Shown piece after piece: positions 11,019 to 27,852 of a stretch of 44,558 nt of DNA (the stretch's first letter is position 1; every line of letters starts with the position of its first letter). The notes under the pieces are model-generated. The model had not been told where the DNA came from. It worked only from the letters and a program-made list of their open reading frames with translations, and did no database searches. The stretch is from Verrucomicrobium sp. (GTDB lineage: Bacteria; Verrucomicrobiota; Verrucomicrobiia; Methylacidiphilales; GAS474): positions 1 to 44,558 of the forward strand of contig JAPWJX010000008.1 of NCBI GenBank assembly GCA_028283855.1, read 5' to 3'. The position numbers were made by a program, and so were the translations under genes.

Positions 11019-11420
11019 TCAAATGAGCCAGACGCTCAGTACGGAACGGGAAGGCCCTGGCGGGATTCTTCCGGGGTCGGAACGGAGCGCGGCGAAGCGA
11101 AGCGCCGGGAAACCCGCCGCCGCGACGGAAGGATGCCAGGGCACCGCGAGGAAAGGAGCCAGGGCAATCGAACGGAACGAAGGGACTGCGCCCGGTGCGG
11201 CGACGACATCGTGATGCGTTGTGTCGGCGACGCACATGCCCTGCGGGCAGGGACAGCAATCCCCGTGGCACTCTTTCCCCATGGAACACACCCCGGCGGA
11301 GTAGCCCGAGGTCAGGGTGACCAACAGGAGGACGAACGCGGCGGAAAGCGTCAGCCCCTTGGCCCAGCCGGAGGAGAGGGAGGAGCGCCACGACATCGGG
11401 GGTTTTATAGCAGCTTTCAT
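11019..11420 (-). CDS. small Cys/His-rich exported protein, unknown family
   Basis: A 133-residue protein with one hydrophobic segment near the N-terminus (LTLSAAFVLLLVTLTSGYSA) followed by a cluster CSMGKECHGDCCPCPQGMC and then a HHD, which looks made to bind soft metals in the periplasm. The C-terminal half is hydrophobic/proline-rich and not recognised. I chose ATG 11420, just after the sigma-factor stop at 11429; a longer frame to 11528 would overlap the sigma gene. It lies between the ECF sigma and cusB in the same direction, so it is most likely a co-regulated metal-binding accessory protein. I know of no confident homolog. Confidence 0.6.
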   Translation of the reverse strand: MKAAIKPPMSWRSSLSSGWAKGLTLSAAFVLLLVTLTSGYSAGVCSMGKECHGDCCPCPQGMCVADTTHHDVVAAPGAVPSFRSIALAPFLAVPWHPSVAAAGFPALRFAALRSDPGRIPPGPSRSVLSVWLI

Positions 11421-11428: not shown

Positions 11429-12007
11429 TCAACCGCTCTTCTCGCCCGCCGTCAAAAAGGAAGTCAGCCGTTCCCGTAAAAGCTGCCTTGCCCGGTAAAG
11501 CCTCGTCTCCACGGCCTTGGCGCTGCACCGCTCGATGCGGGCGATTTCCTCATAGCCGAGGTTTTCGTACTCGAACAGCAGCACGGCGGTCCGCAGATCG
11601 TCGGGCAGCGAGGAGATCGCCGCTTGGACTGCCGCCGCCCTTTCGCGGGCGACGGTGGCTTCGGCGGGGTTCATCCCGGGCTCAACCGGCTCCACGCGCC
11701 CCGGTCCCGATTCCTCCCCTTCGACCTCGGCATCCGGGGAGACGAGAGGAACGGTCGGGTGCCGGACCAGCCAACGGACGTGGTTGCGGTAGAGGTTGGT
11801 CGCAATCGTGAAGAGCCAGGTGGAGAACTTGCCCGTGGGGCGATACCGCCCGCGCTGTTCGTAGACCTTCACGAACGCCTCCTGGGCGAGGGAAACAGCA
11901 TCGTGCTCCCGTCCCAGTTGCCGGAAGAGGTAATGGACGAGCGGACGCTGCCAGCGGTCCATGATCTCCTTCAACGCCAGGTCGTCGCCTGCCTCCAGGC
12001 GCCGCAT
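11429..12007 (-). CDS. ECF sigma factor of cnrYXH-like cassette 1 (CnrH-like)
   Basis: A 192-residue ECF RNA-polymerase sigma factor. Region 2 includes LAQEAFVKVYEQ and FSTWLFTIATNLYRNHVR (-10 recognition); region 4 includes LPDDLRTAVLLFEYENLGYEEIA and SAKAVETRLYRARQLLRERL (-35 recognition). ATG 12007 is the only start available: the frame is closed upstream by TAA at 12047-12049, which is also the stop of the sensor gene. It is third in an anti-sigma, sensor, sigma order identical to cnrYXH. Candidate target promoters with a shared sequence lie at 12870-12894, 13391-13415 and 13896-13920. Metal ligand and sigma specificity are inferred from context. Confidence 0.88.
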   Translation of the reverse strand: MRRLEAGDDLALKEIMDRWQRPLVHYLFRQLGREHDAVSLAQEAFVKVYEQRGRYRPTGKFSTWLFTIATNLYRNHVRWLVRHPTVPLVSPDAEVEGEESGPGRVEPVEPGMNPAEATVARERAAAVQAAISSLPDDLRTAVLLFEYENLGYEEIARIERCSAKAVETRLYRARQLLRERLTSFLTAGEKSG

Positions 12008-12046
12008 TGCCGCGTTGTCGGCCTCTTCGCGTTCCCCGGCATGGCT

Positions 12047-12517
12047 TTAGCGGGAAGGCGCCGCTTCCGCATTCCGCATTTCCGGGCGCAGGACGTGCGG
12101 CTCCATCTTCTCCAGGTAGCGTTGCCGCTGGTCCGGGCTCATGACTTGGCCCACTCGGTAGATCTGCTGAAGCATCGCCGCCTGGCACTCCTGCCTTAAG
12201 GAGGAAACGTCTTGGAGGGCCTGGATGACCTCCGGGGTCACGGATTGGCTCTTGGCGATCTGGACGCGGAGGTTGGTCTGCGCCGTCATCATCCGAGTAC
12301 AGAGGCGATCGCAGACAGGGTCGTATTCCTCGTGCAGACGCTGGACCTCGGCGAACTGCCGGTCGTCCAGTCGGAATTCGTGGCGCAGCCACTCCAGCTC
12401 CGCGTCTTGGGACGAGGCCAGGGCATGGGTCGCGTGCATCCCAGCCCGGTAGCTGACGGCCCACGTCGCCAGGACGGCGGCCAAGAGCAGAAGGAGAAGG
12501 ACCAAGGGCCGTCTCAT
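12047..12517 (-). CDS. periplasmic heavy-metal sensor, cassette 1 (CnrX-like)
   Basis: A 156-residue membrane-anchored periplasmic protein of the CnrX/CpxP-like metal-resist fold. An N-terminal hydrophobic anchor (LVLLLLLLAAVLATWAVSY) precedes an all-helical domain with potential ligands in MHATH, LRHEF, LHEEY and two Cys (VCDRLC). In the CnrYXH system the sensor binds metal in the periplasm and releases the sigma factor from the membrane anti-sigma. Its start overlaps the stop of the upstream TM protein by ATGA (12514-12517), and the sigma gene follows 39 bases later. The metal is unknown; linkage to cusBA makes copper or silver plausible. Confidence 0.8.
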   Translation of the reverse strand: MRRPLVLLLLLLAAVLATWAVSYRAGMHATHALASSQDAELEWLRHEFRLDDRQFAEVQRLHEEYDPVCDRLCTRMMTAQTNLRVQIAKSQSVTPEVIQALQDVSSLRQECQAAMLQQIYRVGQVMSPDQRQRYLEKMEPHVLRPEMRNAEAAPSR

Positions 12518-12849
12518 GGACCTTGGCGCATCTGGGCTTTGGCGACGGGGTCAATGGAGAAGGCATACCGGGTACCCAGGCGGTCCATCTCGCGGGAACT
12601 CGCGACCTCGGACTGGATTTGGCCCGCGACCACGGCGACGAGGAGCAGCCCCGCCGCCGCCGGAACGGCGACACGGGGGCGAACCCCTCCCTCCATCAGC
12701 CAGCGGACGGCCTTCCTCCACCAGAGGGATTGGCGGTTGTCCTCCTCTGCCGCGATCCGGTCCCAGACTTCCGATTGGAAGTTCTTGGGCAGATCGACGG
12801 GGGGCTGCCACGCCTTCAGGAGGTCGTTGAGGTTATCGTCGTGTTTCAT
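12514..12849 (-). CDS. single-pass membrane protein, putative anti-sigma (CnrY-like), cassette 1
   Basis: A 111-residue protein with a soluble N-terminal part of about 50 residues (DDLLKAW-type helices and FQSEVWDRIAAEED) and one transmembrane segment (VAVPAAAGLLLVAVVAG). Position and topology match CnrY, the membrane anti-sigma that holds CnrH. Sequence similarity to CnrY itself cannot be claimed. ATG 12849 has GGAG eight bases upstream; a longer frame to 12888 would start inside the promoter. It is the first gene of the operon, about 20 bases below the -10 element of the candidate ECF promoter 12870-12894, and overlaps the sensor gene by four bases. Its counterpart in cassette 2 is 23822-24160. 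Confidence 0.7.
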   Translation of the reverse strand: MKHDDNLNDLLKAWQPPVDLPKNFQSEVWDRIAAEEDNRQSLWWRKAVRWLMEGGVRPRVAVPAAAGLLLVAVVAGQIQSEVASSREMDRLGTRYAFSIDPVAKAQMRQGP

Positions 12850-12869
12850 ATTGAGTCTCCATTCCGACG

Positions 12870-12894
12870 AACACCGCGCCACGGCCAAACCCTT
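12870..12894 (-). promoter_or_regulatory. candidate ECF promoter P1 (cassette 1 autoregulation)
   Basis: Minus-strand -35-like AAGGGTTT, ten bases, then -10-like CGGTGTT. The same two blocks at exactly the same spacing occur at 13391-13415 and 13896-13920, each upstream of a minus-strand gene with secretion signal or metal context. The start codon of the putative anti-sigma lies 20 bases below the -10 block. Sharing by three unrelated upstream regions argues for a specific sigma, most simply the one encoded at 11429-12007. Confidence 0.7.
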
Positions 12895-12933
12895 TTCTTA
12901 GCAGGGACATCGGGGACGGGCGAGCGCGGTTCC

Positions 12934-13332
12934 CTACATGGAACAGCCCGCGCCCATCGAGCACCCCGATGTCGAGGTGGCCGCTGGCTTGGCAGCGGCG
13001 ACCGGCGAATGATTCTTCGCGGCGGCATCGATGATCGACAGATACTTCTGGGGATCGGCGTTGAACTTGGCGGGGCAGGCCGGGCAACAGAAGCGGACCA
13101 GTCGGACACTGTCCTTCCCGTCCACCTTGGTCTTGTAGAGATAGTCGATGGGCTTCCCCATCTCACCCAGCTTGCTTCCCGAGACCGGGCAGGTGTCTAG
13201 GGGGTAGGTCTTCACCAACTGGTCGATGGTTTTCTGGTCTTCGGGGCTGTTGGCGGCCTGGGCGGTCAGGGGGGTGAAAGCGATGGCTCCCAGGGCCAGG
13301 AACCAGGTGGTCAATGCGATCCAATTTTTCAT
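12934..13332 (-). CDS. secreted YHS-like metal-binding protein (paralog 1)
   Basis: A 132-residue exported protein: signal peptide ending near TAQAA, then a domain with TCPVSGSKL and VRFCCPACPAKF, Cys pairs resembling YHS/TRASH metal-binding domains, and a C-terminal GCSMGAGCSM tail that could bind Cu(I). ATG 13332 has GGAG about eight bases upstream; the longer frame to 13386 would overlap the promoter leader. A clear paralog lies at 27432-27833 with the same YPL-x-TCPVSG and VRFCCP blocks but without the Cys/Met tail. This copy carries promoter type P1; the other carries type P2. A periplasmic copper carrier or scavenger is likely but unproven. Confidence 0.72.
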   Translation of the reverse strand: MKNWIALTTWFLALGAIAFTPLTAQAANSPEDQKTIDQLVKTYPLDTCPVSGSKLGEMGKPIDYLYKTKVDGKDSVRLVRFCCPACPAKFNADPQKYLSIIDAAAKNHSPVAAAKPAATSTSGCSMGAGCSM

Positions 13333-13390
13333 GATGTCGTCTCTCCAGGGGTGGCACGGGGGGTTGAAAACGTGCCTGTTCAGCATCTAA

Positions 13391-13415
13391 AACACCGTAG
13401 AGGGCCGAAACCCTC
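13391..13415 (-). promoter_or_regulatory. candidate ECF promoter P1 for the YHS-like gene
   Basis: Minus-strand GAGGGTTT, ten bases, CGGTGTT, the same pattern and spacing as at 12870-12894 and 13896-13920. It is 58 bases upstream of the ATG at 13332. Confidence 0.7.
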
Positions 13416-13424
13416 GAAAATTTT

Positions 13425-13463
13425 TAAAAAAAGAAACCGCCCGGATTTTTCAGATCCGGGCGG
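13425..13463 (-). terminator. intrinsic terminator after the CPSMAL protein gene
   Basis: CCGCCCGGAT (13437-13446) and ATCCGGGCGG (13454-13463) form a perfect 10-bp stem around a 7-base loop. On the minus strand it is followed by TTTCTTTTTTT. It ends the 13487-13840 transcript and lies directly upstream of promoter 13391-13415. Confidence 0.93.
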
Positions 13464-13486
13464 CTTGTCTTGGGCTCCGGGAGGGA

Positions 13487-13840
13487 TTACCGGGCGTTGC
13501 AGTCAGCGAGGGCCATGCTGGGGCAGCTCGACACCGTCGAGACCTGCTTGCCGCTGTCGCGCTGGAGGTGGGTCACGCAGTTCTTGCCCGCGTAGGCGAA
13601 GCCCGGCTGCGTGATCGTCGCATGTCCCTTGCTGTCAAGGTCGTGGGTCTGCTCCACCGAGACCAGCGCCATAGAGGGGCAGCGGAGGGCCGCTTCCTGC
13701 CGGGGCGCCGAGGCCACGGCTTCCGGAATGCTCCCGATGCGGGGGCCTTTGCTCGTGTCGGCGGCGGACGCCTGCATCTGGGAAAATCCGACGACCGCGA
13801 CGGCCATCACTGCCAGGGTCCACTTGTGAATCTGCTTCAT
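13487..13840 (-). CDS. small secreted protein with two CPSMAL motifs, unknown
   Basis: A 117-residue protein with a signal peptide (VMAVAVVGFSQMQASA) and a mature part that contains the motif CPSMAL twice (CPSMALVSVEQ and SCPSMALADC) plus a central Cys (KNCVTH). Cys-Pro-x-Met repeats near copper pumps suggest soft-metal binding. I do not recognise the family. ATG 13840 has AGGAA eight bases upstream. It is a single-gene transcript, with candidate promoter 13896-13920 before it and a strong terminator after it, so it can be highly expressed on its own under the cassette-1 sigma. Confidence 0.65.
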   Translation of the reverse strand: MKQIHKWTLAVMAVAVVGFSQMQASAADTSKGPRIGSIPEAVASAPRQEAALRCPSMALVSVEQTHDLDSKGHATITQPGFAYAGKNCVTHLQRDSGKQVSTVSSCPSMALADCNAR

Positions 13841-13895
13841 GTTTTTAGTTCCTATATGGAGGCGGGGGTTATTCCAATCGCCTCTCATAGGGAGA

Positions 13896-13920
13896 AACAC
13901 CGGAGATGAGGGAAACCCTT
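13896..13920 (-). promoter_or_regulatory. candidate ECF promoter P1 for the CPSMAL gene
   Basis: Minus-strand AAGGGTTT, ten bases, CGGTGTT, identical in both blocks to 12870-12894. It lies in the short gap between the end of czcA (13929) and the ATG at 13840. Confidence 0.72.
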
Positions 13921-13928
13921 GCCGGAAA

Positions 13929-16900
13929 TCATCCCTCCGGTGGGACGGCCTCTTTTTCCCTCCTCACGATTCGTTGCGATGCTTCCTCCACCCAGGCGTA
14001 GAGGGTGGGAAGCAGAACCAGGGTCAAGAACGTCGCCATCACGATGCCCCCGATGACCACGGTCGCCAGGGGACGCTGAACCTCGGCCCCGGCGCCGTGG
14101 GCCAACGCCATCGGCACGAAACCCAGGCCCGCGACCAAGGAGGTCATCAGGACGGGGCGCAGCCGGGTCAGGGAGCCTTCCTGGACGGCGTCGCGAATGG
14201 AACGGCCCTCTTCCCGGAGTTGGTTGAAGAAGCTGAGCAGCACCACGCCGTTGAGAACGGCTACGCCGGACAAGGCGATAAAGCCCACCCCTGCCGAGAC
14301 CGAGAACGGCAGGCCGGTGGCCCAGAGGGCGAAGATGCCCCCCGACGCCGCCAACGGGATGCCGGTGTAGATGATCGCAGCCTGGCGCAGGCTGCGGAAC
14401 GACAGAAAGATGATAAGGAAGATCAACAACAGGGCCGTGGGGACCACTACCGCAAGCCGGGCCTTCGCCGCCTGGAGGTTCTGGAACGCCCCCCCGAACT
14501 CGACGAAGTAGCCCTCGGGCACCTGGACCTGCTCCTTGATCTTCCGCCGGGCCTCGTTCACGAAGCTCTCCACGTCCCGTCCTCGGAGGTTGATCACGAT
14601 GGCCATGCGCCGCTGGGACGCCTCCCTGGTGATCGTGTTGACGCTCTCGGTCATGCCGGTCCTGGCGATCTGTCCCAGGCCGACGAGGCCGCCGTCCTGG
14701 GTCCGCACCGGCATCTGGGCCACGGCGTCGAACTTCTGGCGTTCCGCCTCGGGCAGGCGCACGACGATGGGATAGCGGCGGTTGCCGTCCACGATGACGC
14801 CCGCCTCCTCCCCGGCGAAGGCGGTGCCGATCAGCTTGTTCACCTCGTCGGCGTGGACGTTGTAACGCTTCATGGCGTCCCGGTTCATGGAAACCTCGAA
14901 GACCGGCGCCTTGCCGACCGCGTCGAACTCCACGTCCTCCGCCCCGGGAATCTTCTCCACGATCTCCCGGATTTGCCCGGACACCTTCTCCAGCACGTCG
15001 TAGTCGTCGCCGAAGACCTTGATCGCGATGTCGGCGCGGCTGCCGGAGAGCAGTTCGTTGAACCGCAGTTCGATGGGCTGCGAGAAGAGATACGCCTGGC
15101 CGGGAAAGTTCTGGTTCACCTCCTTGCTGATCGCCTCGATCAGCCCGTCCTTGGTGAGCCGGTGGCCGTCTACCTTCCGCCATTGGTCCTCCGGCTTGAG
15201 CATGACGTACGAGTCCCCGGTGTTCACCCCCATGGGGTCGGTCGCCACCTCCGACGTGCCGACGCGGGAGAAGATGTGCGTCACCTCGGGGAACTTCTCC
15301 AGGATGCGCTTCTCCGTCGCCTTCTCCATGTCGAGCGAAGCGGACAACCCGATACTGGTGGTCCGCACCATCTGGAGGGCAATGGACCCCTCGTCCAGCC
15401 GGGGAACGAACACCGCGCCCAGCCGGGTGAAGACCCAGACCGAAAGGACGAAGATCGCCAGCGTCGTCCCCACCAGCGGCCAGCGCCACCGAAGCGCCTT
15501 ATCCAGTACCGGGGCATGGGCCCGCTTGGCCCATCCGATGAGGCGATTGTCCTTTTCCGTAATCTTGCCGGTCAGGAAGAACGAACCGAAGGCGGGCACC
15601 AGGGTCAGCGCCAGCAACAGGCCGCCGATCAGCGCGAAGATGACCGTCATCGCCATCGGGACGAACATCTTTCCCTCGGTCCCCGTCAGGGTCAGGAGAG
15701 GGATATAGACGATAGTGATGATCGCCACTCCGATCACGGTGGGGGTTCCGACCTGCTTGCAGGCGGCGAGAATGATATGCAGGCGTTCCTCCTTGGTGAG
15801 CAGGCGCCCCAACTGGTGCTGCCGATGGGCCAGAAGGCGGACGATATTCTCGGCCATGAAGACGGCCCCGTCGACGATCAGACCGAAATCGACCGCTCCC
15901 AGACTCATCAGGTTCCCCGAGACGCCGAACCGGACCATTCCCGTGATGGCGAAGAGCAGCGACAGCGGGATCGCCAGGGCGACGATGAGCGCCGCCCGCC
16001 AGTTGCCCAGCATCCCGATGAGGACGGCGACCACCAGCACCGCGCCCTCGAAGAGGTTCCGTTCCACCGTCGAGATGGTTCGGTTGACCAGGTCGGTGCG
16101 GTCGTAGAGTTTCGCGACCTCGATGCCGGGGGGGAGCTTGGCGCCGACCTCCCGGATCTTCGCGTCCACCCTCTGCGAAACCAACCGGCTGTTCTCCCCG
16201 ATCAGCATCAGGGCCGATCCCAGCACCGCCTCCTCGCCGTCGAGGGTGGCCGAGCCGGTACGGACCCCGGACCCGATGGCGACCTCGGCCACGTCGCCCA
16301 CGGTCATGGCCATGGGTCCGGCGCGGAACTTCAGGGGGATGTCGGCGATCTCTCCAGCCGACTGCACCCGGCCCACCGAGCGCACGGTGATGCTCTCGCC
16401 TCCCTTCTCGACGACTCCTCCCCCCGCGTTCTGAGTGTTCTCCGCGACCAACGCGGCCAGCTCGTTCATCGTCATGCCGACGCTCGCCAGCTTCCGGGGA
16501 TCGGGCATGACGACGATCTGCTTCTCGTAGCCGCCCGAGGTGTTCACTTCCGTGACGCCGGGAACGCTGCGGAGCGCGGGCTTCACCAGATAGTCCTGGG
16601 CCAGCTTCAGTTGGAGCAGCCGCTCGTAGGCGGCCGCGGGGGTCTCCTTGGCGTCGGCCTGGTAGCGGACGGCGTAGTGGTAGATTTCCCCGAGACCGGT
16701 GGTGATCGGGGCCAGCTTGGGGGACACGCCGGGGGGCAGGTCCCCCAGGTTCTGCAACCGCTCCGAGACAAGCTGGCGGGCGCGATAGAGGTCGGTGCCC
16801 TCCTGGAAGATCAGCGTGACCTGGGACAAACCGAACTTGGAGAGAGACCGCACTTCCTCCAGGCCCTGGATGCCTCCCATCTCGATCTCGATGGGGTAGG

Positions 16901-17096
16901 TCACGAGCTTTTCCACTTCCTCGGGGGCGAGGGACGTGACCGCCGTGTTGACCTGCACCTGGACGTTGGTGATGTCCGGCACCGCGTCGATGGGAAGATG
17001 GGCGGCGGACCAGCAGCCCACCGCCACCAACCCGAGCGTCCCCAGGACGACGAAAATGCGTTGCCGCAGGGAGAATTCGAGAATCTTATCGATCAT
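13929..17096 (-). CDS. czcA: CzcA-type heavy-metal RND efflux pump
   Basis: A 1055-residue proton-coupled RND pump, inner-membrane part of a tripartite divalent-cation exporter. The relay motif DFGLIVDGAVFMAEN places Asp403, Asp409 and Glu416 as in CzcA, the signature of the Zn/Co/Cd/Ni group, and distinguishes it from CusA (GAMVDAAIIMIEN). The methionine triad of CusA is not conserved. It follows czcC and czcB on the minus strand with a five-base gap after czcB. Exact metal range cannot be read from sequence; nickel/cobalt is possible given the cnr-like regulators nearby. Confidence 0.92.
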   Translation of the reverse strand: MIDKILEFSLRQRIFVVLGTLGLVAVGCWSAAHLPIDAVPDITNVQVQVNTAVTSLAPEEVEKLVTYPIEIEMGGIQGLEEVRSLSKFGLSQVTLIFQEGTDLYRARQLVSERLQNLGDLPPGVSPKLAPITTGLGEIYHYAVRYQADAKETPAAAYERLLQLKLAQDYLVKPALRSVPGVTEVNTSGGYEKQIVVMPDPRKLASVGMTMNELAALVAENTQNAGGGVVEKGGESITVRSVGRVQSAGEIADIPLKFRAGPMAMTVGDVAEVAIGSGVRTGSATLDGEEAVLGSALMLIGENSRLVSQRVDAKIREVGAKLPPGIEVAKLYDRTDLVNRTISTVERNLFEGAVLVVAVLIGMLGNWRAALIVALAIPLSLLFAITGMVRFGVSGNLMSLGAVDFGLIVDGAVFMAENIVRLLAHRQHQLGRLLTKEERLHIILAACKQVGTPTVIGVAIITIVYIPLLTLTGTEGKMFVPMAMTVIFALIGGLLLALTLVPAFGSFFLTGKITEKDNRLIGWAKRAHAPVLDKALRWRWPLVGTTLAIFVLSVWVFTRLGAVFVPRLDEGSIALQMVRTTSIGLSASLDMEKATEKRILEKFPEVTHIFSRVGTSEVATDPMGVNTGDSYVMLKPEDQWRKVDGHRLTKDGLIEAISKEVNQNFPGQAYLFSQPIELRFNELLSGSRADIAIKVFGDDYDVLEKVSGQIREIVEKIPGAEDVEFDAVGKAPVFEVSMNRDAMKRYNVHADEVNKLIGTAFAGEEAGVIVDGNRRYPIVVRLPEAERQKFDAVAQMPVRTQDGGLVGLGQIARTGMTESVNTITREASQRRMAIVINLRGRDVESFVNEARRKIKEQVQVPEGYFVEFGGAFQNLQAAKARLAVVVPTALLLIFLIIFLSFRSLRQAAIIYTGIPLAASGGIFALWATGLPFSVSAGVGFIALSGVAVLNGVVLLSFFNQLREEGRSIRDAVQEGSLTRLRPVLMTSLVAGLGFVPMALAHGAGAEVQRPLATVVIGGIVMATFLTLVLLPTLYAWVEEASQRIVRREKEAVPPEG

Positions 17097-17101
17097 AATT
17101 T

Positions 17102-17878
17102 TCAGTCGGCGTGTCCGCCGCCTTTCGTGAACCGCAGTTCGATGAGGTAAAGGGAATCGACCCCGGCGGAGGCGACCTTGTCACCCTCCGCGAGGCCGTC
17201 CTTGATTTCGATCCAGCCGTCGGCCTCGTTGCCGACGACGACAGGGACGCGCAGGAGCCGCCCGTCCCGTTCGAGGTAGGCCGACGTTCCGGCAGCGGCA
17301 TGAAGCACCGCCGACCGGGGGACGGTCACGACCGGCTTGGACGCCTCACCCGGCTCGATCCGCACCGGAAGGAAGTCCCCCACGGCGAGGCGGCCTGCCG
17401 GGTCGGGAATCTCCAGCAGCAACTCCTCCTTCCCCGTGGCGGCAAGGGAGGCGTTGGCGATCCGCCAGATCGTCCCCCCGGCTTCACCTTCCGCTTCGGC
17501 AAGGCCAACCCGGATGCGCTGCCCAGCCTTGGCCGGGACGGACGCGGGATCGACCCAGACAGTGGCGTAGGCGTTGCCCGGCTTCTCCTTTCCGAAGTGG
17601 CGGAGCGGTTCCGAGGCGGCCCGATAGACTTGGGCAGTCACCGTGGTTTCCGCCCGGACGGGGCGCAATTCGGCGGTGGCAAAGGCGACTCCCAAGCTCT
17701 GACGGGACGCCTCGCTCAGCGAAAGGCCCTTCTCCTCCTCATAGGCGGCGCCTTCCTCGGCGGCGGGGGCCTTGTCCTCGGTAGTCGCGGTTTCTTGCAG
17801 ACCGGCGGGCTTGCCGCAGGCCGCCAGGGCCAACGCCGCTAGCGCCGATAAAGTACGTTTCCAGATCACGTTTCTCAT
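17102..17878 (-). CDS. czcB: unusually short periplasmic adaptor (CzcB-like lipoprotein)
   Basis: A 258-residue adaptor for the CzcA pump. The N-terminus has a lipobox (LALAACG, Cys20 region). Normal CzcB/HlyD adaptors are roughly 350-500 residues and contain a lipoyl domain split by a long coiled-coil hairpin. Here the chain passes from TVTAQVYRA almost straight to barrel-like sequence (YATVWVDPASVPAKAGQRIRV in shape) and then the membrane-proximal domain (VPRSAVLHAAAGTSAYLERDGR, GWIEIKDGLAEGDKVASAG in shape). I see no hairpin. ATG 17878 overlaps the czcC stop (ATGA), so it is a deliberate coupled start, not a truncated call. Function as a working adaptor is inferred from its place in the operon. 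Confidence 0.75.
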   Translation of the reverse strand: MRNVIWKRTLSALAALALAACGKPAGLQETATTEDKAPAAEEGAAYEEEKGLSLSEASRQSLGVAFATAELRPVRAETTVTAQVYRAASEPLRHFGKEKPGNAYATVWVDPASVPAKAGQRIRVGLAEAEGEAGGTIWRIANASLAATGKEELLLEIPDPAGRLAVGDFLPVRIEPGEASKPVVTVPRSAVLHAAAGTSAYLERDGRLLRVPVVVGNEADGWIEIKDGLAEGDKVASAGVDSLYLIELRFTKGGGHAD

Positions 17879-19137
17879 TTGGCCTCCATCGTTCCGCCCG
17901 TGAGCAGCTCCAGATCGAGCAGGTCGCGCCATGCCTGCACCATTGCCTCCTGCCGAGTTTGTTGGGCGGCCAGGAATCCCCGTTGGGAATCCAAGAACAA
18001 CTGCACCCCGATGGCGCCGGTACGGTATTGCCGATCCGCCAGGTCGGACGCCTCGCGCAGGTCGGCAAGGGTCCGCTCCGTCGTTCCGTCGAGTTGGGCC
18101 TGCGTTCGCTGGTAGGACCGGATGCGGCGGAGGATTTCGGCCTCCACCTTGCGCCGGGCGTCGGCGAGGAGGGCGTCCGTTTGATCCCTGCGAGCCTTGG
18201 CGGCGGCGACATTGCCCTGGTTCCAGTTCCATAGGGGAAGGGTCATCGACAGGCTGACACCGAGGTTTTCCTCGTTGTCCCCCGCCTTATCCTGGCTGAA
18301 GAACGGCCCGACCGAGAAGTCCGGAGCGGCGTCGAGCTTGGCGGCGGAGACGGTCCGCACCGCCTTTTCCAGTTCAGCAGTCCGGGAACGGAGTTGGAGG
18401 TTGCCCGCCAGCCCGGCCAGGACCCACTTGTCGGCGTCGACCTTTGCCTCCGGGAATGCGAGGACCGACGCGATCCGCACCGGCTGGCTCGCGGGAAAAC
18501 CCAAGAGCCGGTTCAGCTCGATGGCGGCCTCGTCGCGGCTCTGGGCGAATTCCCGGGCCGACTTCCGCAGGTCGATCAGGCCCGCCTCGATGACCCGCAA
18601 TTCCAGCAACTGCGGCACCCCCGCCGTCGCCCGCTGGCCCAGGAGCTTCACCAGGCCGTCGGAGCGTTCCCGGATTTCCTCCGCCGCGTCGGCTTCGGCG
18701 GAGGCCGCCAGGTATTGATAGGCCAAGCTGCGGATTTGCCCGGCCAGGGAACTGCGAAACTGCCGCAGCCCCAGGTCGGCCAGCTCCACGTCCTTGTCGG
18801 CAATCGCCTTCCGCAGCGATCCCTTCCCGGGGAACTCGAAGGTTTGCGTGACGGTGACACTGCGGGTGAATCCCTCGGCGAGATTCCCGCCATCGCCGGT
18901 GACGCGGCGACTGCCGTATTCTCCCGTGAACTCGGGATTCTTCCAGAGTCCGGCCTGGGTGCGTTTCCCCTTGGCGGCGGCGACCTCGGCCTCGAAGGAG
19001 CGAAGCTCGGCGTTGGCCGCCATGCCCCGGGCCGCCAACTGGTCGATGGTCCAGGCGCCCGGCGGCTCCGCGCGGGCGGTCCAGGAAGTCAGGACCAGGA
19101 CGGTCCCGGCGATCCAATACAATTTCATGGCTTTCAT
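17875..19137 (-). CDS. czcC: TolC-family outer-membrane channel CzcC
   Basis: A 420-residue outer-membrane efflux protein. A signal peptide (YWIAGTVLVLTSWTARA) precedes two OEP repeats with long amphipathic helices (ELRSFEAEVAAAKGKRTQAG; AELEKAVRTVSAAKLDAAPD). It would form the exit duct for CzcA. ATG 19137 overlaps the stop of the upstream HVHV-motif gene (19134-19137, ATGA); the much longer frame to 19518 only runs antiframe through that gene. The order HVHV protein, czcC, czcB, czcA is tight, with four-base overlaps or short gaps throughout. Confidence 0.88.
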   Translation of the reverse strand: MKAMKLYWIAGTVLVLTSWTARAEPPGAWTIDQLAARGMAANAELRSFEAEVAAAKGKRTQAGLWKNPEFTGEYGSRRVTGDGGNLAEGFTRSVTVTQTFEFPGKGSLRKAIADKDVELADLGLRQFRSSLAGQIRSLAYQYLAASAEADAAEEIRERSDGLVKLLGQRATAGVPQLLELRVIEAGLIDLRKSAREFAQSRDEAAIELNRLLGFPASQPVRIASVLAFPEAKVDADKWVLAGLAGNLQLRSRTAELEKAVRTVSAAKLDAAPDFSVGPFFSQDKAGDNEENLGVSLSMTLPLWNWNQGNVAAAKARRDQTDALLADARRKVEAEILRRIRSYQRTQAQLDGTTERTLADLREASDLADRQYRTGAIGVQLFLDSQRGFLAAQQTRQEAMVQAWRDLLDLELLTGGTMEAK

Positions 19138-19541
19138 TTGGAACAGAAGACGTGGGGGCTGCTCGAATAGGAGACCTGCACCGCCTTCGCGCCCAAGAGT
19201 CGGGAGGCCGGAAACCCCACCGTGAAGGGAATGGTGTTCATCTGGAACGGGCGTCCCGTGACGTTCACCCCTTCCGTTTTCGCGGCGAGGATGCTCCCCC
19301 TCCGGTCGTGCCACTCGACGTGGACATGGGCGCCGGTCGCGGGATTGCCGTCCCAATAAACCAATCCGGTGACGTAGACCTGTTCCCCGTACCGCTTCAC
19401 GGTGGCAGAGGCGACCTTTCCAGCGTTCGACTCGATCAGCTTGACCGACAGCGGCGCGGCCCGTAGCGGGACAGCGAGGGCGGCCAGCGCGACCGCGAGG
19501 AGCCATCCCCTTCTCCAACTCTTTTCAAAACGACTCTTCAT
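19134..19541 (-). CDS. secreted HVHV-motif protein (paralog 1), unknown family
   Basis: A 135-residue exported protein (signal peptide ending near AVPLRAAPL) with a probable beta-sandwich. It shares with 24175-24624 the pattern YW-x(n)-HVHV-x4-D-x-RG-x-IL, seen here as GAHVHVEWHDRRGSILAA. The His pairs could bind metal. It is the first gene of the czcCBA operon and is translationally coupled to czcC. The paralog is first gene of the cassette-2 regulatory operon. A periplasmic metal-binding or sensing accessory role is inferred from these two positions; I know no named family for it. Confidence 0.65.
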   Translation of the reverse strand: MKSRFEKSWRRGWLLAVALAALAVPLRAAPLSVKLIESNAGKVASATVKRYGEQVYVTGLVYWDGNPATGAHVHVEWHDRRGSILAAKTEGVNVTGRPFQMNTIPFTVGFPASRLLGAKAVQVSYSSSPHVFCSK

Positions 19542-19627
19542 GCCTGATTCCTGGTAGACCGCGACGCAAGGCGTGCGGCAGCTAAGTGCAAGGCCCGCCC
19601 TTTTCAGGAACGGGACCGATGGAGGAA

Positions 19628-19646
19628 CGAGGGAGGAACTCCCTCG
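19628..19646. repeat. short perfect inverted repeat
   Basis: CGAGGGAG (19628-19635) and CTCCCTCG (19639-19646) around three bases, just below the stop of the 19651 gene and above the HVHV gene. It may be a weak terminator for the former, though no T run follows, or an operator for the czc operon. Confidence 0.35.
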
Positions 19647-19650
19647 CGAA

Positions 19651-19968
19651 TCAGGCGATCTTGGGCGGCTGGTCGATGGCCTGGAAAAGCTCTTCCGGCA
19701 TCGCCAAATCGCTTAGTCGGAAAGATTGCTCGCCGGACAGAGGGGCGCCCTCGACAAGAACCGACGTCGAAACGTGGACGGGAGCCGGATGGAGGTGGCA
19801 GCAGCAGTGGCCGTCCCCGTCATCCCCTTGAACGGGAGAATCGCCGGAATGCTCGCCGCACGTCACCCAGCCCATCTGCTCGGCGTAGCCGACCTCAAGC
19901 TGGCAAGCGAAGGCCGCCAGGATGAGCAGCGCCAGCGCGGGCGCGAAACGGGCGAAGAGACGGCGCAT
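19651..19968 (-). CDS. small secreted Cys/His-rich protein, unknown
   Basis: A 105-residue protein with a signal peptide (FAPALALLILAAFACQL) and a mature part holding a metal-type cluster HCCCHLHPAPVH after an acidic GDDGDGHCC stretch. Not recognised as a family. ATG 19968 gives a signal peptide of normal length; the frame to 20004 adds 12 residues. It lies 54 bases after the ZntA-like ATPase on the same strand, with a candidate -35 TTGACA and a small inverted repeat in the gap, so it may have its own promoter. A role in binding zinc, cadmium or copper outside the membrane is plausible. Confidence 0.55.
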   Translation of the reverse strand: MRRLFARFAPALALLILAAFACQLEVGYAEQMGWVTCGEHSGDSPVQGDDGDGHCCCHLHPAPVHVSTSVLVEGAPLSGEQSFRLSDLAMPEELFQAIDQPPKIA

Positions 19969-19989
19969 GGTAGGTACGGTTAGGCCGGG

Positions 19990-20002
19990 GACATCAAATG
20001 TC
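19990..20002 (-). promoter_or_regulatory. possible promoter and operator before the Cys/His protein
   Basis: The inverted repeat GACAT-CAA-ATGTC overlaps a minus-strand TTGACA that could be a -35 box; a -10 candidate (TAACCG) sits about 16 bases below and is poor. Only one copy is seen, so this is weak. Confidence 0.25.
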
Positions 20003-20022
20003 AATTCGGTCGGCTCTCTCGG

Positions 20023-22281
20023 TCACGGCCTCAAGAGCCGCATCGCGTTCATCACGACCAGCAGCGTCGCCCCGGTATCGGCCAGGATCGCCAGCCAGAG
20101 GCTGGTGTAGCCCAGGACGGCCAGGACGAGGAAGACCGCTTTCAAAGCGAGGGCGAAGCCGATGTTGAACTGGATGACTCGGACGGTGCGGCGTCCCAAC
20201 CGGATCGCCTCGGCCACCTTGGTCAGGTCGTCCTGCATCAGGGCCATGTCGGCGGTTTCGATGGCGGTGTCGGTCCCCGCGGCTCCCATCGCGATGCCGA
20301 CCGTGGCGGCGGCCATGGCGGGGGCATCGTTTACCCCGTCGCCCACCATCCCGACGAACTGATGGGCGGCGATGAGTTTTTTGACGTATTCGATCTTCTG
20401 ATCGGGCAGGAGGTCGCCGTGGGCCTCGTCGATGCCCGCCTGCCGGGCAATGGCCGACGCGGTGCGCTGGTTGTCGCCGCTCAGCATGACCACTGGGTTG
20501 ACGCCTGCCCGGTGCAGGATGTCGATGGCTTCTCGGGCGTTTTCACGGATGGCGTCGCCCACCGCCAGGATGCCCAAGATTTCCCCCTGGCAACCGTCGT
20601 GAGGCCGATGGCCGACGATAACGACCGACTGGGCCTCCCCCTCGATCTCCGCGAGCTTCTCTTCCAGGTCGGGAGAGCAGACGCCCAGCTCATGGGTAAA
20701 GCGGTGGTTTCCCACGAAATAGCGGTGTCCCTCCACCACGGCCTCGGCGCCGCGCCCGCTCTGGGCTTGGTACTGCTCCGCCCGAGGGAACGCGATCTTT
20801 TGTTCGGTGGCGTAGGCGACGACCGCCTGGGCCAAGGGATGCTCCGAGTGGGTGTCGATGGCGGCGGCGATCCGAACGACCTGCGCGTCGTCTTCGGCCT
20901 TCCAGCGGACGATCCGGGTCACGCGGGGCTTTCCTTCCGTGATCGTGCCGGTCTTATCGACCGCCAGGGCGCGGATCTTGCCGACTGCTTCCAGGACGGC
21001 CCCGCCCTTGATGAGGACGCCGCGCCGCGCCATCGCCGTCAGGCCGGAAACGACCGAGACGGGGGTGGAGATGACCAGGGCGCACGGGCAGGCAATCACC
21101 AGGAGGACCAGCCCGCGATAGAACCACGTCAGCCACTCCCCGCCGAAGGCGAGCGGGGGAATCAGGATCACCAGCAGCGCCGCCACCATGACGGCAGGGG
21201 TGTAGATGCGGGCGAACCGGTCCACGAAACGCTGAGAGGGGGCCTTCTGGGATTGGGCCTCCTCGACCAGATGGATGATCTTGGCGATGGTCGTGTCGCG
21301 GTACGCCTTGGTGGTCTCGATGTCTAGGGAGCCGGACCCGTTGATTGTCCCCGCGTAGACCTCGTCCCCCGCCTTCTTGGCAACCGGCATCGACTCCCCG
21401 GTAATGGGGGCCTGGTCCACGGACGAGTCCCCGGCGACGATCTTGCCGTCGAGGGGAATGCGCTGACCCGACTTGACGGTGATGGTCGCCCCCACCGGCA
21501 CCTCCTCGACGGGCACCTCCTCGAAGGCGTCCCCATTCTTGAGCAGGGCGACCTCCGGGGTCAGTTTCATCAACGACTGGACCGCCCTCCGGGCGCGGGT
21601 AAGGCTGAACGCCTCCAAAAGCTCGGAGAGGGCGAAGAGGAAGGTGACTGCCGCACCTTCCGACCACTGGTGGATCGCCAGCGCCCCCGCGACGGCGACG
21701 GTCATGAGGACGTTCATGTCCAGGGAGAGGCGGCCCAGGACGCGGATCGCCTTGGGGACGACGAACCAACCGCCCGCGACGATGGCGACCCCGAAGGCGA
21801 TGTCCGCCGACCACTCGGGCGTCACCTTGGTCCAATGGATGAGAAGACCGACGCCGGTGAAGAGGCCGGAAACCGCCACGGCGATCTGGTGGTAACGCTT
21901 CAGGCTGTCCACGTCGCCCGCCTCGGCGTCGTCCCGGCTTCCCTTCAGGCCCGCCTTGGCGACGAGCTTGATCAGATCGTCCGAGGTGACCGACTCGTCG
22001 TGGCGCAAGGTCACCTTGCCGCCCATCAGGTTCACCCGGACCTCTCGGATGCCCTTCACAGGGCGGAAGACCTGTTCCAGGGCCTCGACCTCGTCGGCGC
22101 AGTCCATCCCCGCCACGCGTAGGGTCGTCTCCAGGTTGCCCTCGGATTCCGCATTCAGGGCGATGCTCTGGGGGGCCGCCGCCTTCTCGTGGGCATGGTC
22201 GTGGCCGCAGCCGCAGGCGTCCGGCTCCGCGTGGGCGTGGTCGCCGTGGTCATGGTCGTGATCGTGGGAATGGGGCTTCAT
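20023..22281 (-). CDS. zntA: Zn/Cd/Pb-exporting P1B-type ATPase (ZntA/CadA group)
   Basis: A 752-residue metal-export ATPase. A His-rich N-terminus (HSHDHDHDHGDHAH) and CGCGHDHAH precede one HMA-like domain whose motif reads GMDCADEVEAL, with one Cys and acidic residues in place of the second Cys. The core has TGES, ACPCALVISTP (transmembrane metal site), DKTGTITEGKP (phosphorylated Asp), GDGVND and the final-helix Asp in LADTGATLLVVMNAMRLL, which is diagnostic of the zinc/cadmium/lead subgroup. ATG 22281 is preferred over an in-frame TTG at 22296. Transcription likely starts from the MerR-type promoter at 22320-22350. Confidence 0.93.
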   Translation of the reverse strand: MKPHSHDHDHDHGDHAHAEPDACGCGHDHAHEKAAAPQSIALNAESEGNLETTLRVAGMDCADEVEALEQVFRPVKGIREVRVNLMGGKVTLRHDESVTSDDLIKLVAKAGLKGSRDDAEAGDVDSLKRYHQIAVAVSGLFTGVGLLIHWTKVTPEWSADIAFGVAIVAGGWFVVPKAIRVLGRLSLDMNVLMTVAVAGALAIHQWSEGAAVTFLFALSELLEAFSLTRARRAVQSLMKLTPEVALLKNGDAFEEVPVEEVPVGATITVKSGQRIPLDGKIVAGDSSVDQAPITGESMPVAKKAGDEVYAGTINGSGSLDIETTKAYRDTTIAKIIHLVEEAQSQKAPSQRFVDRFARIYTPAVMVAALLVILIPPLAFGGEWLTWFYRGLVLLVIACPCALVISTPVSVVSGLTAMARRGVLIKGGAVLEAVGKIRALAVDKTGTITEGKPRVTRIVRWKAEDDAQVVRIAAAIDTHSEHPLAQAVVAYATEQKIAFPRAEQYQAQSGRGAEAVVEGHRYFVGNHRFTHELGVCSPDLEEKLAEIEGEAQSVVIVGHRPHDGCQGEILGILAVGDAIRENAREAIDILHRAGVNPVVMLSGDNQRTASAIARQAGIDEAHGDLLPDQKIEYVKKLIAAHQFVGMVGDGVNDAPAMAAATVGIAMGAAGTDTAIETADMALMQDDLTKVAEAIRLGRRTVRVIQFNIGFALALKAVFLVLAVLGYTSLWLAILADTGATLLVVMNAMRLLRP

Positions 22282-22319
22282 GGAAAGGGGGTGCAAAGGT
22301 TCGGTTTCCGACTACCTTA

Positions 22320-22350
22320 AGGGAACACCCTGAAGCCACTTCAGGGTCAA
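22320..22350 (-). promoter_or_regulatory. MerR-type operator/promoter for zntA
   Basis: A 21-bp dyad with arms ACCCTGAAG (22327-22335) and CTTCAGGGT (22339-22347) lies between a minus-strand -35 TTGACC (22345-22350) and a -10 position (22320-22325, TTCCCT) separated by 19 bases. An over-long spacer filled with such a dyad is the hallmark of CadR/PbrR/ZntR promoters, where metal-bound MerR protein twists the DNA. The -10 hexamer is poor, in line with dependence on an activator. It is in the divergent gap between zntA and the MerR gene. Confidence 0.85.
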
Positions 22351-22364
22351 GCCCTCCCCACGCC

Positions 22365-22796
22365 ATGAAGATCGGAGAACTCGCCGAAGCCGCCCAATGC
22401 ACGGTCGAAACCGTCCGCTACTACGAAAAGGCAGGCCTGCTTCCGAAGTCGGACCGCTCCGGTAACAACTACCGCGTCTACGGACAGCGGCACCTGGACC
22501 GGCTGCGCTTCGTCCGCAACTGCCGCGCCCTGGATATGTCGCAGGAGGAGGTCCACGCCCTTCTCCGCCTGATGGATAAGCCCGCCTCGGATTGCGACTC
22601 GGTCAATCTTCTCCTCGACGAGCACATCTCCCACGTCGATGCCCGGATCGAGGAGCTACAGAAGCTAAAGGGACAGTTGACCGGCTTGAGAAAGAAATGC
22701 CGCACGCGCCGCCAAGTGAAGGAGTGTGGCATTCTGCATGGCCTTTCCGCCATGCGCCCGAAGGGGAAGAAATTGGCTTCCAGCCACCTCGGATAG
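22365..22796 (+). CDS. cadR: MerR-family Cd/Pb/Zn-responsive activator (CadR/PbrR-like)
   Basis: A 143-residue regulator. The N-terminal winged helix is typical (MKIGELAEAAQCTVETVRYYEKAGLL in character), with a dimerisation helix (DEHISHVDARIEELQKLKGQ in character) near residues 85-105. Metal-binding cysteines are at Cys77 (ASDCDSVN), Cys112 (KKCRTRR) and Cys121 (KECGILHG), matching the Cys77/112/119 set of CadR and PbrR. It is divergent from zntA, with an operator of the right form between them. Its 3' end stops four bases from the convergent end of the cassette-2 sigma gene. Confidence 0.9.
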   Translation: MKIGELAEAAQCTVETVRYYEKAGLLPKSDRSGNNYRVYGQRHLDRLRFVRNCRALDMSQEEVHALLRLMDKPASDCDSVNLLLDEHISHVDARIEELQKLKGQLTGLRKKCRTRRQVKECGILHGLSAMRPKGKKLASSHLG

Positions 22797-22799
22797 CCT

Positions 22800-23375
22800 C
22801 TAACGGTCCAACCGCTTCGATAAGACCTTCCGGGCCCGGTAGACCTTCATCTCGACTGCCTTGGCGCTCAGTCCGAGAAGACGTCCTGCCTCCTCCTGCG
22901 TCAGGCCCTCGACGGCAGTCAGGATCAAGGGGGACTTCAAGTCGGGGGGAAGACCAGCGATCTCCCGCTCCACGATCGCCAAGTTTTCTCTCTGCACGGC
23001 AGCGGCGGCGGGATCGGGTCCGGGGGAGGGAAACTCCCGGTCGCGAGGCTCGTCGGGACTGGATCGGCTCGCCGATACCGATTCGGTCCGGAGCACCCGG
23101 GACGATCCCTGTCGGCGCAGGTGATCCCGGCACAGGTTCACGGCGATGCGGAAGAGCCAGGTCGAGAAGAGGGCGTCCGGCCGAAACGTGGCAAGGTGGA
23201 AATAGGCGCGGACGAACGCCTCCTGGGCGATCTCCTCGGCGTCGGAGCGATTCGCCACGGAACGGCAGACGAAATGAAAAATCCGCTCCTGGTATCGCTC
23301 GACCAGCGCGTCGAAAGCCCGCTCGGTGCCGGCTTGCACAGCCTGAACCAGAGGGAGGTCTGGATCCTGCCCCAT
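22800..23375 (-). CDS. ECF sigma factor of cnrYXH-like cassette 2 (CnrH-like)
   Basis: A 191-residue ECF sigma factor. Region 2 shows AEEIAQEAFVRAYFHLATF and FSTWLFRIAVNLCRDHLRR; region 4 shows LPPDLKSPLILTAVEGLTQEEA and SAKAVEMKVYRARKVLSKRL. It is clearly different from the cassette-1 sigma (11429-12007) outside conserved blocks, including in the region-4 recognition helix neighbourhood, which fits the two distinct promoter motifs. It is the last gene of the operon HVHV protein, TM protein, sensor, sigma, 12 bases after the sensor. Candidate targets are the three promoters of pattern GTGAGGG-RT-N14-CGTTTAA at 24630, 24749 and 27361. Confidence 0.88.
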   Translation of the reverse strand: MGQDPDLPLVQAVQAGTERAFDALVERYQERIFHFVCRSVANRSDAEEIAQEAFVRAYFHLATFRPDALFSTWLFRIAVNLCRDHLRRQGSSRVLRTESVSASRSSPDEPRDREFPSPGPDPAAAAVQRENLAIVEREIAGLPPDLKSPLILTAVEGLTQEEAGRLLGLSAKAVEMKVYRARKVLSKRLDR

Positions 23376-23387
23376 GACGTTCCTCGA

Positions 23388-23825
23388 TCAGGGTTGGCGG
23401 CGCAGCCCCTCGGACGTGAGGCGGATCAGCTTGTCATATTGCTCGGGCGTCAGGACGGCCTTCATCTCGAAGACATGGTCCAGGGTAGCATTTTGCAAGC
23501 CCCCCATCGCGTCGTGGATTTTTTCGACGGCAACCTGAACGCGGGGGGAGTCGGCCTGATCGTCGGCGACCGCCTGGGCCAGCTCCAGGTTGGCGAGGCG
23601 GATCAGCTCGGCATAGTGCCGGCGCTTCTCGGTGAAGGCCGCCTCGATCGGCCCGAGCTTCCGGTCCTGGTCGGGGGTGATGGCCAGTTGGTGGTGAATC
23701 CAGGCATGGCTGAACTCCGGCGCCGCCTGCCGGTGCTTCAGGTATTGGCCGGTGAGAAGACAGCTCCCCGACGCCACCAATGCCACGGCCAGCAGCAGGA
23801 TGCCGAATGCCCAGGCGCGATTCAT
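23388..23825 (-). CDS. periplasmic heavy-metal sensor, cassette 2 (CnrX-like)
   Basis: A 145-residue membrane-anchored helical protein of the CnrX/CpxP metal-resist group. The anchor is WAFGILLLAVALVASGSCLL; the soluble part has a His-rich first helix (FSHAWIHHQL), the LTPDQ/LTPEQ-type turn seen in the family (ITPDQDRKL and LTPEQYDKL) and KRRHYAEL. The start overlaps the TM-protein stop as ATGA (23822-23825), exactly the arrangement in cassette 1. It would sense metal outside the membrane and trigger release of the sigma factor. The metal is unknown; the targets include a Cu(I) ATPase and multicopper oxidase, so copper or silver is favoured. Confidence 0.78.
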   Translation of the reverse strand: MNRAWAFGILLLAVALVASGSCLLTGQYLKHRQAAPEFSHAWIHHQLAITPDQDRKLGPIEAAFTEKRRHYAELIRLANLELAQAVADDQADSPRVQVAVEKIHDAMGGLQNATLDHVFEMKAVLTPEQYDKLIRLTSEGLRRQP

Positions 23826-24160
23826 CGCCCCTCCAGCAACGTTGTCGGCAGGCCGGGCGCGTGAAGGCCGAAGACATCCAGTTCCATCGCCCGGGTGGCT
23901 CCCGAGACCCGGATCCCGGAGCCGGTCGCGATGCCCAAGAAGAGGCCGACCATCAGGGAGAACGCCAGGGCGGCGAAAATCGGCTGGGGCCTCACCAGCG
24001 GGGCCAACGCCCAGTCCAGCCAGGAGCCGAACGAACGGGGCGGCGCGGCCTGCCGGTGGCGAATCTGCCTCCAAATGCCATCCCGGAAGCCGGACGGCAG
24101 GGCGGGCTTCGGCTGCGCAGCCAATTCCTGGAGGAGGCGGTCGAGATCGTGGTCTTGCAT
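23822..24160 (-). CDS. single-pass membrane protein, putative anti-sigma (CnrY-like), cassette 2
   Basis: A 112-residue protein with a soluble N-terminal part (DLDRLLQELAAQ, FRDGIWRQIRHRQ), one transmembrane segment (PIFAALAFSLMVGLFLGIAT) and a short periplasmic tail. The N-terminal layout resembles its counterpart in cassette 1 (DLLKAW... FQSEVWDRIAAEE against LLQEL... FRDGIWRQIRHR), with a shared F-x3-W-x-R/Q-I spacing. Gene order and topology point to a CnrY-type membrane anti-sigma. It starts 14 bases after the HVHV gene and overlaps the sensor by four bases. Confidence 0.68.
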   Translation of the reverse strand: MQDHDLDRLLQELAAQPKPALPSGFRDGIWRQIRHRQAAPPRSFGSWLDWALAPLVRPQPIFAALAFSLMVGLFLGIATGSGIRVSGATRAMELDVFGLHAPGLPTTLLEGR

Positions 24161-24629: not shown

Positions 24630-24660
24630 GTTAAACGTGATTTTTGAAACCATCCCTCAC
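24630..24660 (-). promoter_or_regulatory. candidate ECF promoter P2 (cassette 2 autoregulation)
   Basis: Minus-strand GTGAGGGAT, exactly 14 bases, then CGTTTAAC. The same blocks and spacing recur on the plus strand at 24749-24779 and 27361-27391. It drives the operon that ends in the cassette-2 sigma gene. Confidence 0.75.
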
Positions 24661-24748: not shown

Positions 24749-24779
24749 GTGAGGGGTCGATCCTGGTAGCCCGTTTAAT
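24749..24779 (+). promoter_or_regulatory. candidate ECF promoter P2 for the copper ATPase operon
   Basis: GTGAGGGGT, 14 bases, CGTTTAAT, preceded by ATTT. It is divergent from promoter 24630-24660 and lies 25 bases upstream of the ATG at 24804, which has an AAAGGAG ribosome binding site. Confidence 0.78.
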
Positions 24780-24803: not shown

Positions 24804-25007
24804 ATGAAACGCCATAGCCTGATGATGCTCGGCTGCATCGTGCCGCTGCTGGCGATCGCCTTCGTCCCCGCCATCGGGAAGAGCGCGATCGCGCCCTTTC
24901 TCATTGCCGTTCCCATGCTAGTTTGCTGTCTCGGCATGATGGGCGGGCACGGCCACGGGGAGAACAAAAAGAAAGACGGCGGGAAGGAATCCAGGAACTG
25001 CCACTGA
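24804..25007 (+). CDS. small membrane protein preceding copA, unknown
   Basis: A 67-residue protein with two hydrophobic segments (LMMLGCIVPLLAIAFVPAIG and IAPFLIAVPMLVCCLGMM) and a C-terminal tail GGHGHGENKKKDGG ending in NCH. It could contribute Cys, Met and His ligands at the membrane. Small proteins of this style often sit next to copper genes, but I do not recognise a named family. The start is fixed by AAAGGAG seven bases before ATG 24804. The copper ATPase starts ten bases after its stop, so they form one operon. Confidence 0.68.
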   Translation: MKRHSLMMLGCIVPLLAIAFVPAIGKSAIAPFLIAVPMLVCCLGMMGGHGHGENKKKDGGKESRNCH

Positions 25008-25016
25008 GCGACTACC

Positions 25017-27360: not shown

Positions 27361-27391
27361 GTGAGGGGTGGGCGACCTTCTTTCGTTTAAT
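27361..27391 (+). promoter_or_regulatory. candidate ECF promoter P2 for the YHS/channel/oxidase operon
   Basis: GTGAGGGGT, 14 bases, CGTTTAAT, identical in both blocks to 24749-24779. It is 40 bases upstream of ATG 27432, just after the end of copA. Confidence 0.78.
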
Positions 27392-27431
27392 CCCCTACAC
27401 CAGCTCGAACCCCCTGGTGCCCTGGAGACTT

Positions 27432-27833
27432 ATGTTTACGAAGATGAAGAAAACCCTGCTCGGATCGACCCTCGGCCTGCTCGCCACGCTGGTGGTCAGC
27501 CTCTGGACTCCCTCCGTCCAGGCCGAAACCTATACGCCGGAGCAGAAGCAGCAGATCGAGGAACTCAAGAAGACCTATCCCCTGACGACCTGCCCGGTCT
27601 CCGGCGAGAAGCTGGACGGCGACATGGGTCCCGCCATCGACTACCTCTACACGGCGAAAGGGACCGACGGGAAGGAGACCACCCGGCTGGTCCGCTTCTG
27701 CTGCCCCTCGTGCCTGCGGAAGTTCAAGAAGGACCCCGCTCCGACGCTGAAGGTTCTCGATGACGCCGCCGCGAAGAAGGGCGGAGCCGCCGCGCCGACT
27801 CCGTCCGCCATGGACGGAATGAAGGGAGTGTAA
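27432..27833 (+). CDS. secreted YHS-like metal-binding protein (paralog 2)
   Basis: A 133-residue exported protein: signal peptide ending near SVQAE, then TCPVSGEKL and VRFCCPSCLRKF, which carry Cys pairs as in YHS/TRASH metal-binding domains, and a charged Ala/Pro tail. It is a paralog of 12934-13332, with shared YPL-x-TCPVSG, IDYLY and RLVRFCCP blocks. ATG 27432 has GGAG four bases upstream; 27444 and 27417 are alternatives. First gene after a P2 promoter and head of an operon with a DUF2231 protein, a CusC-like channel and a multicopper oxidase, so a periplasmic copper role is likely. Confidence 0.72.
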   Translation: MFTKMKKTLLGSTLGLLATLVVSLWTPSVQAETYTPEQKQQIEELKKTYPLTTCPVSGEKLDGDMGPAIDYLYTAKGTDGKETTRLVRFCCPSCLRKFKKDPAPTLKVLDDAAAKKGGAAAPTPSAMDGMKGV

Positions 27834-27852
27834 CGGCGGAACGTCGTTTGCT

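Follow-up and report, generated by a model that had tools for sequence, protein, structure and literature searches.

Two CnrYXH-type sigma factor cassettes with separate promoter motifs and predicted copper targets in one metal region of a Verrucomicrobium genome

The window analysed here, the entire 44,558-nucleotide contig JAPWJX010000008.1 of Verrucomicrobium sp. (assembly GCA_028283855.1), carries in one metal region two three-gene cassettes of the same layout, each coding for a small single-pass membrane protein (Y), a membrane-anchored sensor (X) and an extracytoplasmic function (ECF) sigma factor (H). The gene order is that of cnrYXH on pMOL28 of Cupriavidus metallidurans, and the question is whether the cassettes are copies of one signalling unit or separate lines, and whether they answer to different metals. 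The analysis indicated that they are probably two anciently separated transmembrane signalling cassettes of the CnrYXH type lying side by side, each with its own predicted promoter and its own predicted copper targets.

All six genes lie on the reverse strand. Cassette 1 consists of Y1 (12849-12514, 111 amino acids, a proposed anti-sigma factor of type A with a C-terminal YxxSIDP motif), X1 (12517-12047, 156 amino acids) and H1 (12007-11429, 192 amino acids), and cassette 2 consists of Y2 (24160-23822, 112 amino acids, a proposed anti-sigma factor of type B), X2 (23825-23388, 145 amino acids) and H2 (23375-22800, 191 amino acids). Rechecking of the six genes and their junctions showed that the coordinates, the gene order, the overlaps and the close-following sigma genes had been given correctly in the original prediction. 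Both Y/X junctions have an identical 4-base ATGA overlap (the Y/X junction of CnrYXH is likewise coupled), and the gaps from X to H are 39 nucleotides in cassette 1 and 12 nucleotides in cassette 2; both are translationally coupled cassettes. Y1 and Y2 each contain one strong hydrophobic stretch. The predicted CnrYXH-like architecture was borne out by the Y-X-H order, by the sensors, which scored 39.1 bits (X1) and 47.6 bits (X2) against PF13801 Metal_resist (curated cut-off 29.2 bits), and by domain searches that identified H1 and H2 as ECF sigma factors.

Across the order, the phylum and plasmids, 105 PF13801 loci were surveyed: the arrangement was Y-X-H in 48, X-H with no Y detected in 10, and H-Y-X in 8. 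Since 48 of the 105 loci share the Y-X-H order and both cassettes recur in G002, the only complete congeneric genome, the arrangement is not due to chance. The count of two cassettes holds for the window, which is contig C8 of its own genome (G000); the organism has a third Y-X-H cassette at about 903 kb on contig C3 (G000:C3:903200-904200; L001, L052), with the CnrX ligand set and its own TGAGGG..CGTT site. Its neighbours are a divergent TonB-receptor-like gene (read from the sequence) and genes for a multicopper oxidase and an outer-membrane efflux protein. The loci with the sigma-first order were L072, L101, L130, L131, L104, L064, L068 and L088.

The two sensors differ in their candidate metal sites. 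X2 aligns to CnrX without gaps (E about 1e-14) and keeps all five CnrX ligands, namely H42, H46, E63, H119 and M123 in CnrX numbering, which are H40, H44, E61, H117 and M121 in X2; Met123 is stated to be conserved among CnrX homologues (review, PMC7689651). At the same five positions X1 has L, R, H, Q and V, and three cysteines in the pattern C69-x3-C73...C111, corresponding to CnrX positions 70, 74 and 112, replace the CnrX ligands. By sequence, the closest relative of X1 with a solved structure is NccX of the Cupriavidus NccYXH system (PDB 4clv, E 6.6e-5), which keeps CnrX-type residues in the aligned sequence where X1 is without them. X1 is nevertheless confidently predicted to form a CnrX-like bundle: the AlphaFold2 model reached a predicted local distance difference test value of 83, and its best Foldseek matches were all CnrX or NccX, most at a target-normalised template modelling score of 0.70-0.78. 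A weaker fold match was obtained with ZraP, Spy and CpxP, which are more distantly related in fold, belong to the LTXXQ/Metal_resist group and are not known to be coupled to a Y protein plus an ECF sigma factor. From the helix boundaries of the model (52-89 and 95-125), C73 and C111 should lie opposite one another in the hairpin, and C69 a single helical turn away. X1 thus appears, as read from the alignment, to have lost the CnrX metal site and to carry a relocated cysteine site instead. No description of such cysteine-type sensors was found in the literature searched, the main ECF reclassification paper lying outside that search.

The cassettes appear to be old parallel lines rather than a recent duplication, because X1 and X2 are only 19% identical, both have closer counterparts in the congener and the two sensors fall in separate lineages across the phylum. 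The identity between H1 and H2 is 39%, while identities to the G002 proteins are 63% for X1, 77% for H1 and 63% for X2. G002 has the pair at a distance of about 11 kb, again next to CusBA (line 1) and to CzcCBA, ZntA and MerR (line 2). The sensor tree placed X1 and X2 in separate clades, and the cysteine-type (CCC) sensors together with one row without the cysteines (L051) formed a clade with 99/99 support. The CCC and CnrX ligand sets were mutually exclusive across the survey, none of the 15 sigma-linked CCC sensors having the CnrX set. Every CCC sensor was partnered with an H1-like sigma factor; among the 28 sensors with the CnrX ligands, 25 had an H2- or CnrH-like partner by best hit, and the remaining ones (L103, L106, L108) cluster with the H2-best loci in the sigma tree. 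Loci with CxxxC...C at CnrX positions 70/74/112 and an H1-type sigma factor are here defined as type A, and cassette 1 qualifies. A scan of genome contigs for the cysteine-type sensor returned just three named relatives, all Verrucomicrobia, and none was found in plasmids at the sensitivity used. Both parts of the earlier claim, that the sensors and sigma factors differ clearly and that the cassettes are parallel lines, are upheld by these comparisons. As a side observation, certain type-B sensors of the order (L035, L036, L037, L038, L039 and L041) make up a separate subgroup that has lost all CnrX ligands; most of these end in CC[HR], and at least three are near CusB/CusA genes.

The predicted promoters also separate the two lines. 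A motif TGAGGG-N16-CGTT was first spotted upstream of type-B cassettes in other genomes, and GAGGG..CGTT then emerged from motif enumeration in 15 of the 27 upstream regions, where shuffled sequence gave no more than 4. The window contains three such sites against 0.10 expected, and the whole genome six, the fourth of which precedes the third cassette. The three predicted H2 promoters in the window precede the cassette 2 operon 24624-22800 (24634..24659, reverse strand), the divergent operon of a small protein and a CopA-type ATPase (24750..24775, forward strand) and an operon for a YHS-like protein, an outer-membrane efflux protein and a multicopper oxidase (27362..27387, forward strand). Cupriavidus cnrYp and cnrCp, whose start sites have been mapped (PMC9045368), read AAGGG/GAGGG-N17-CGTAT, and the alphaproteobacterial copper cassettes read TGAGGG-N16-CGTAT. 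The H2 line is therefore assigned, at the level of sequence, to the CnrH promoter code. In many type-B loci the CGTT element ends about 10 nucleotides ahead of the Y start codon, as it does at 24634 ahead of the gene start at 24624, which suggests leaderless or nearly leaderless mRNAs for these genes.

For the H1 line, alignment of the congeneric regions revealed AGGGTTT-N11-GGTGTTT twice, once ahead of a small secreted-protein gene (13895..13919, reverse strand) and once ahead of the run YHS-Y1-X1-H1-CusBA (13390..13414, reverse strand). The motif RAGGGTTT-N11-GGTGTT is strongly enriched over shuffled sequence, occurring only twice in the organism's genome and only twice in G002, and a slightly looser form was present at 7 sites, spread over 6 of the 14 remaining type-A loci, against 0.0 in shuffles. 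Enumeration within 300-700 nucleotides of Y gave nothing above shuffles; in the aligned congeneric regions the motif sits one gene further up. Cassette 1 does not follow the CnrH code: its -35 core is similar, and its -10 element is GGTGTT rather than CGT. One of these six loci is in G024, which belongs to a different family within the order; there both lines occur within 8 kb, each with its own motif.

The genes behind these promoters point to copper. The predicted H1 targets (all on the reverse strand) include a small secreted protein with two CPSMAL motifs (13487..13840), a CusB-like adaptor with a heavy-metal-binding domain (9518..10900) and a CusA-like resistance-nodulation-division (RND) pump (RND1, 6306..9506) with the HME4 motif AIGAMVDAAIIMIEN; the second pump, RND2, has an HME1 motif. 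The predicted H2 targets (all on the forward strand) are a P1B-1 type copper ATPase with CPC, YN and MxxSS motifs and two HMBD (25017..27341), and the YHS-like protein, a small membrane protein, the outer-membrane efflux protein and the multicopper oxidase (27417..31060). HME4 and HME1 motifs and the CPC/YN/MxxSS set can be assigned to metals, HME4 marking the Cu/Ag class and CPC/YN/MxxSS copper ATPases. On the HME4 pump and the ATPase motifs, both predicted regulons appear to be of copper type. A weak terminator-like hairpin lies between a Cys-rich gene and CusB, for which reason read-through from cassette 1 into CusBA is likely rather than certain. Type-A cassettes were mostly near CusA in the survey. 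Pump class as a marker of the sensor metal was tried and rejected, CnrX-site sensors being found near CzcA, CusA and multicopper-oxidase genes.

By its sensor ligands and promoter code, cassette 2 would be a CnrYXH-type system, sharing with CnrYXH the five CnrX ligands and the RAGGG-N16/17-CGT code. Cassette 1 would be CnrYXH-like in its predicted working, with a CnrX-fold sensor and an ECF sigma factor, and differs from CnrYXH in the lost CnrX site, the cysteines and the GGTGTT -10 element; it is best described as a putative cysteine-site variant. The predicted targets of both cassettes are copper genes, unlike cnrCBA. In the proposed mechanism, the periplasmic sensor X would bind a metal ion and alter its contact with the membrane protein Y, which would then let go of H, and the freed H would guide RNA polymerase to the cassette-specific promoter. 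Cassette 2, with the His/Glu/Met site and the CnrH code, would drive its own operon, the CopA-type ATPase operon and the YHS/efflux/multicopper-oxidase operon, while cassette 1, with the CnrX fold, the relocated cysteines and the diverged -10 element, would drive the small secreted protein and the YHS-YXH-CusBA run. Copper would presumably be the inducer of both.

The part of Y in this mechanism was approached by profile comparison. Y proteins share an N-terminal LDxLL...LPxxFxxxVWxRI pattern followed by one hydrophobic stretch. Type A and type B Y proteins (Y1, Y2) are homologous (hhalign 98.3%), and type-B Y proteins are homologous to the alphaproteobacterial ones (95.9%). Close to the Y N-terminus, hydrophobic residues spaced i, i+3, i+4 are enriched over shuffles, a pattern resembling the knob with which CnrY reportedly holds CnrH in the structure of the two proteins. 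Together with position and topology, this suggests that Y1 and Y2 may act as anti-sigma factors that hold H; NCBIfam and PDB searches with Y1 and Y2 gave no usable anti-sigma match. The expected kinship with CnrY itself was not found, as Y1/Y2-type proteins had no detectable homology to Cupriavidus CnrY by hhalign with a CnrY profile of two sequences only.

That missing match counts against the reading of two CnrYXH-type lines with their own promoters, as do several further results. In PDB searches H1 and H2 matched sigma-E-like proteins (Pseudomonas aeruginosa sigma-H, Escherichia coli sigma-E) better than CnrH. More than half of the independent type-A loci yielded no H1 motif, and L044 and L046, both of type A, also have CGTTT-type sites, which means that the -10 difference does not hold everywhere. 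Cross-recognition is possible as well, since the predicted promoters of the two lines have the -35 core and GTT in common.

The original prediction of non-redundant metal lines implied that the cassettes sense different metals, cassette 2 responding to divalent Ni, Co or Zn through the CnrX site and cassette 1 to monovalent Cu or Ag through the cysteines. X2 does have the exact Ni/Co ligand set of CnrX and lies near CzcCBA and a ZntA-type ATPase, and X1 is in a run with an HME4 CusA. This alternative is nonetheless rather unlikely, since neither the H1 nor the H2 motif occurs in the CzcCBA/ZntA divalent-metal block between the cassettes (13929-22296), the three H2 sites preceding copper genes and the cassette itself. 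The ZntA-type ATPase has its own adjoining divergent MerR-family gene (22365-22796, forward strand), whose product has C-terminal cysteines that resemble CadR/PbrR by eye. A copper-bound CnrX structure exists (3epv). Alphaproteobacterial plasmid cassettes (Sphingomonadales, Caulobacter) with the same HHEHM sensor site and TGAGGG-N16-CGT promoters as cassette 2 directly precede multicopper oxidase (copA) and copB genes; they differ in having one line per locus among those seen and, in Sphingomonadales, targets directly downstream of H. The lines do differ in metal-site residues and in predicted promoters and regulons; as the predicted targets of both are of copper type, different metals are not required, and what sets the lines apart may be the form of copper, the threshold or the set of targets.

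Redundant or cross-talking lines, with promoters alike enough for either sigma factor to switch on both gene sets, would agree with the common GAGGG...GTTT core and spacing and with the 39% identity of the sigma factors. This is unlikely, given that the -10 type (GGTGTT or CGTT) is cassette-specific in both genus genomes and in G024, and that sensors and sigma factors keep their partners across the phylum. It is quite improbable that X1 is a redox or thiol-stress sensor whose three cysteines make and break disulfides with no metal bound, for although periplasmic cysteines are oxidisable and CxxxC...C is the strictly kept feature, three cysteines are odd for a disulfide switch, type-A cassettes adjoin CusBA in many genomes, and the cysteines come with a His at position 63 and, in many cases, another at 119.

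Within the preferred reading of two copper lines, it is tentatively suggested that copper signalling is split by form, the cysteine-site sensor answering to Cu(I)/Ag(I) and acting on CusBA, the His/Glu/Met-site sensor answering to Cu(II) and acting on the ATPase and multicopper oxidase, with the -10 change (TGTT versus CGTT) insulating the paralogous ECF sigma factors. Among periplasmic metal sensors linked to ECF sigma factors, CnrX has been studied best, and a clade with its fold and cassette and a relocated cysteine site would mean that the scaffold can be retuned. The canonical and cysteine forms in one copper region, with their own promoters, provide a natural setting in which to study how specificity for metal and promoter arises in paralogous ECF lines, and the conserved promoter code allows regulon prediction in unannotated genomes.

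Three further genes accompany these operons: a YHS-like secreted protein heads the cassette 1 operon (12934..13386, reverse strand, likely start ATG 13332), the small Cys-rich secreted protein lies between H1 and CusB (11019..11420, reverse strand), and a small His-rich membrane protein stands ahead of the copper ATPase (24804..25009, forward strand). The cassette 2 operon is headed by a secreted protein without a Pfam family (24175-24624, reverse strand), which is homologous (E 5e-11) to the protein heading the CzcCBA operon (19134-19541, reverse strand); both are also present in G002. Elsewhere in the window, positions 41715-41799 (forward strand) matched the fluoride riboswitch aptamer (Rfam RF01734, 44.1 bits).

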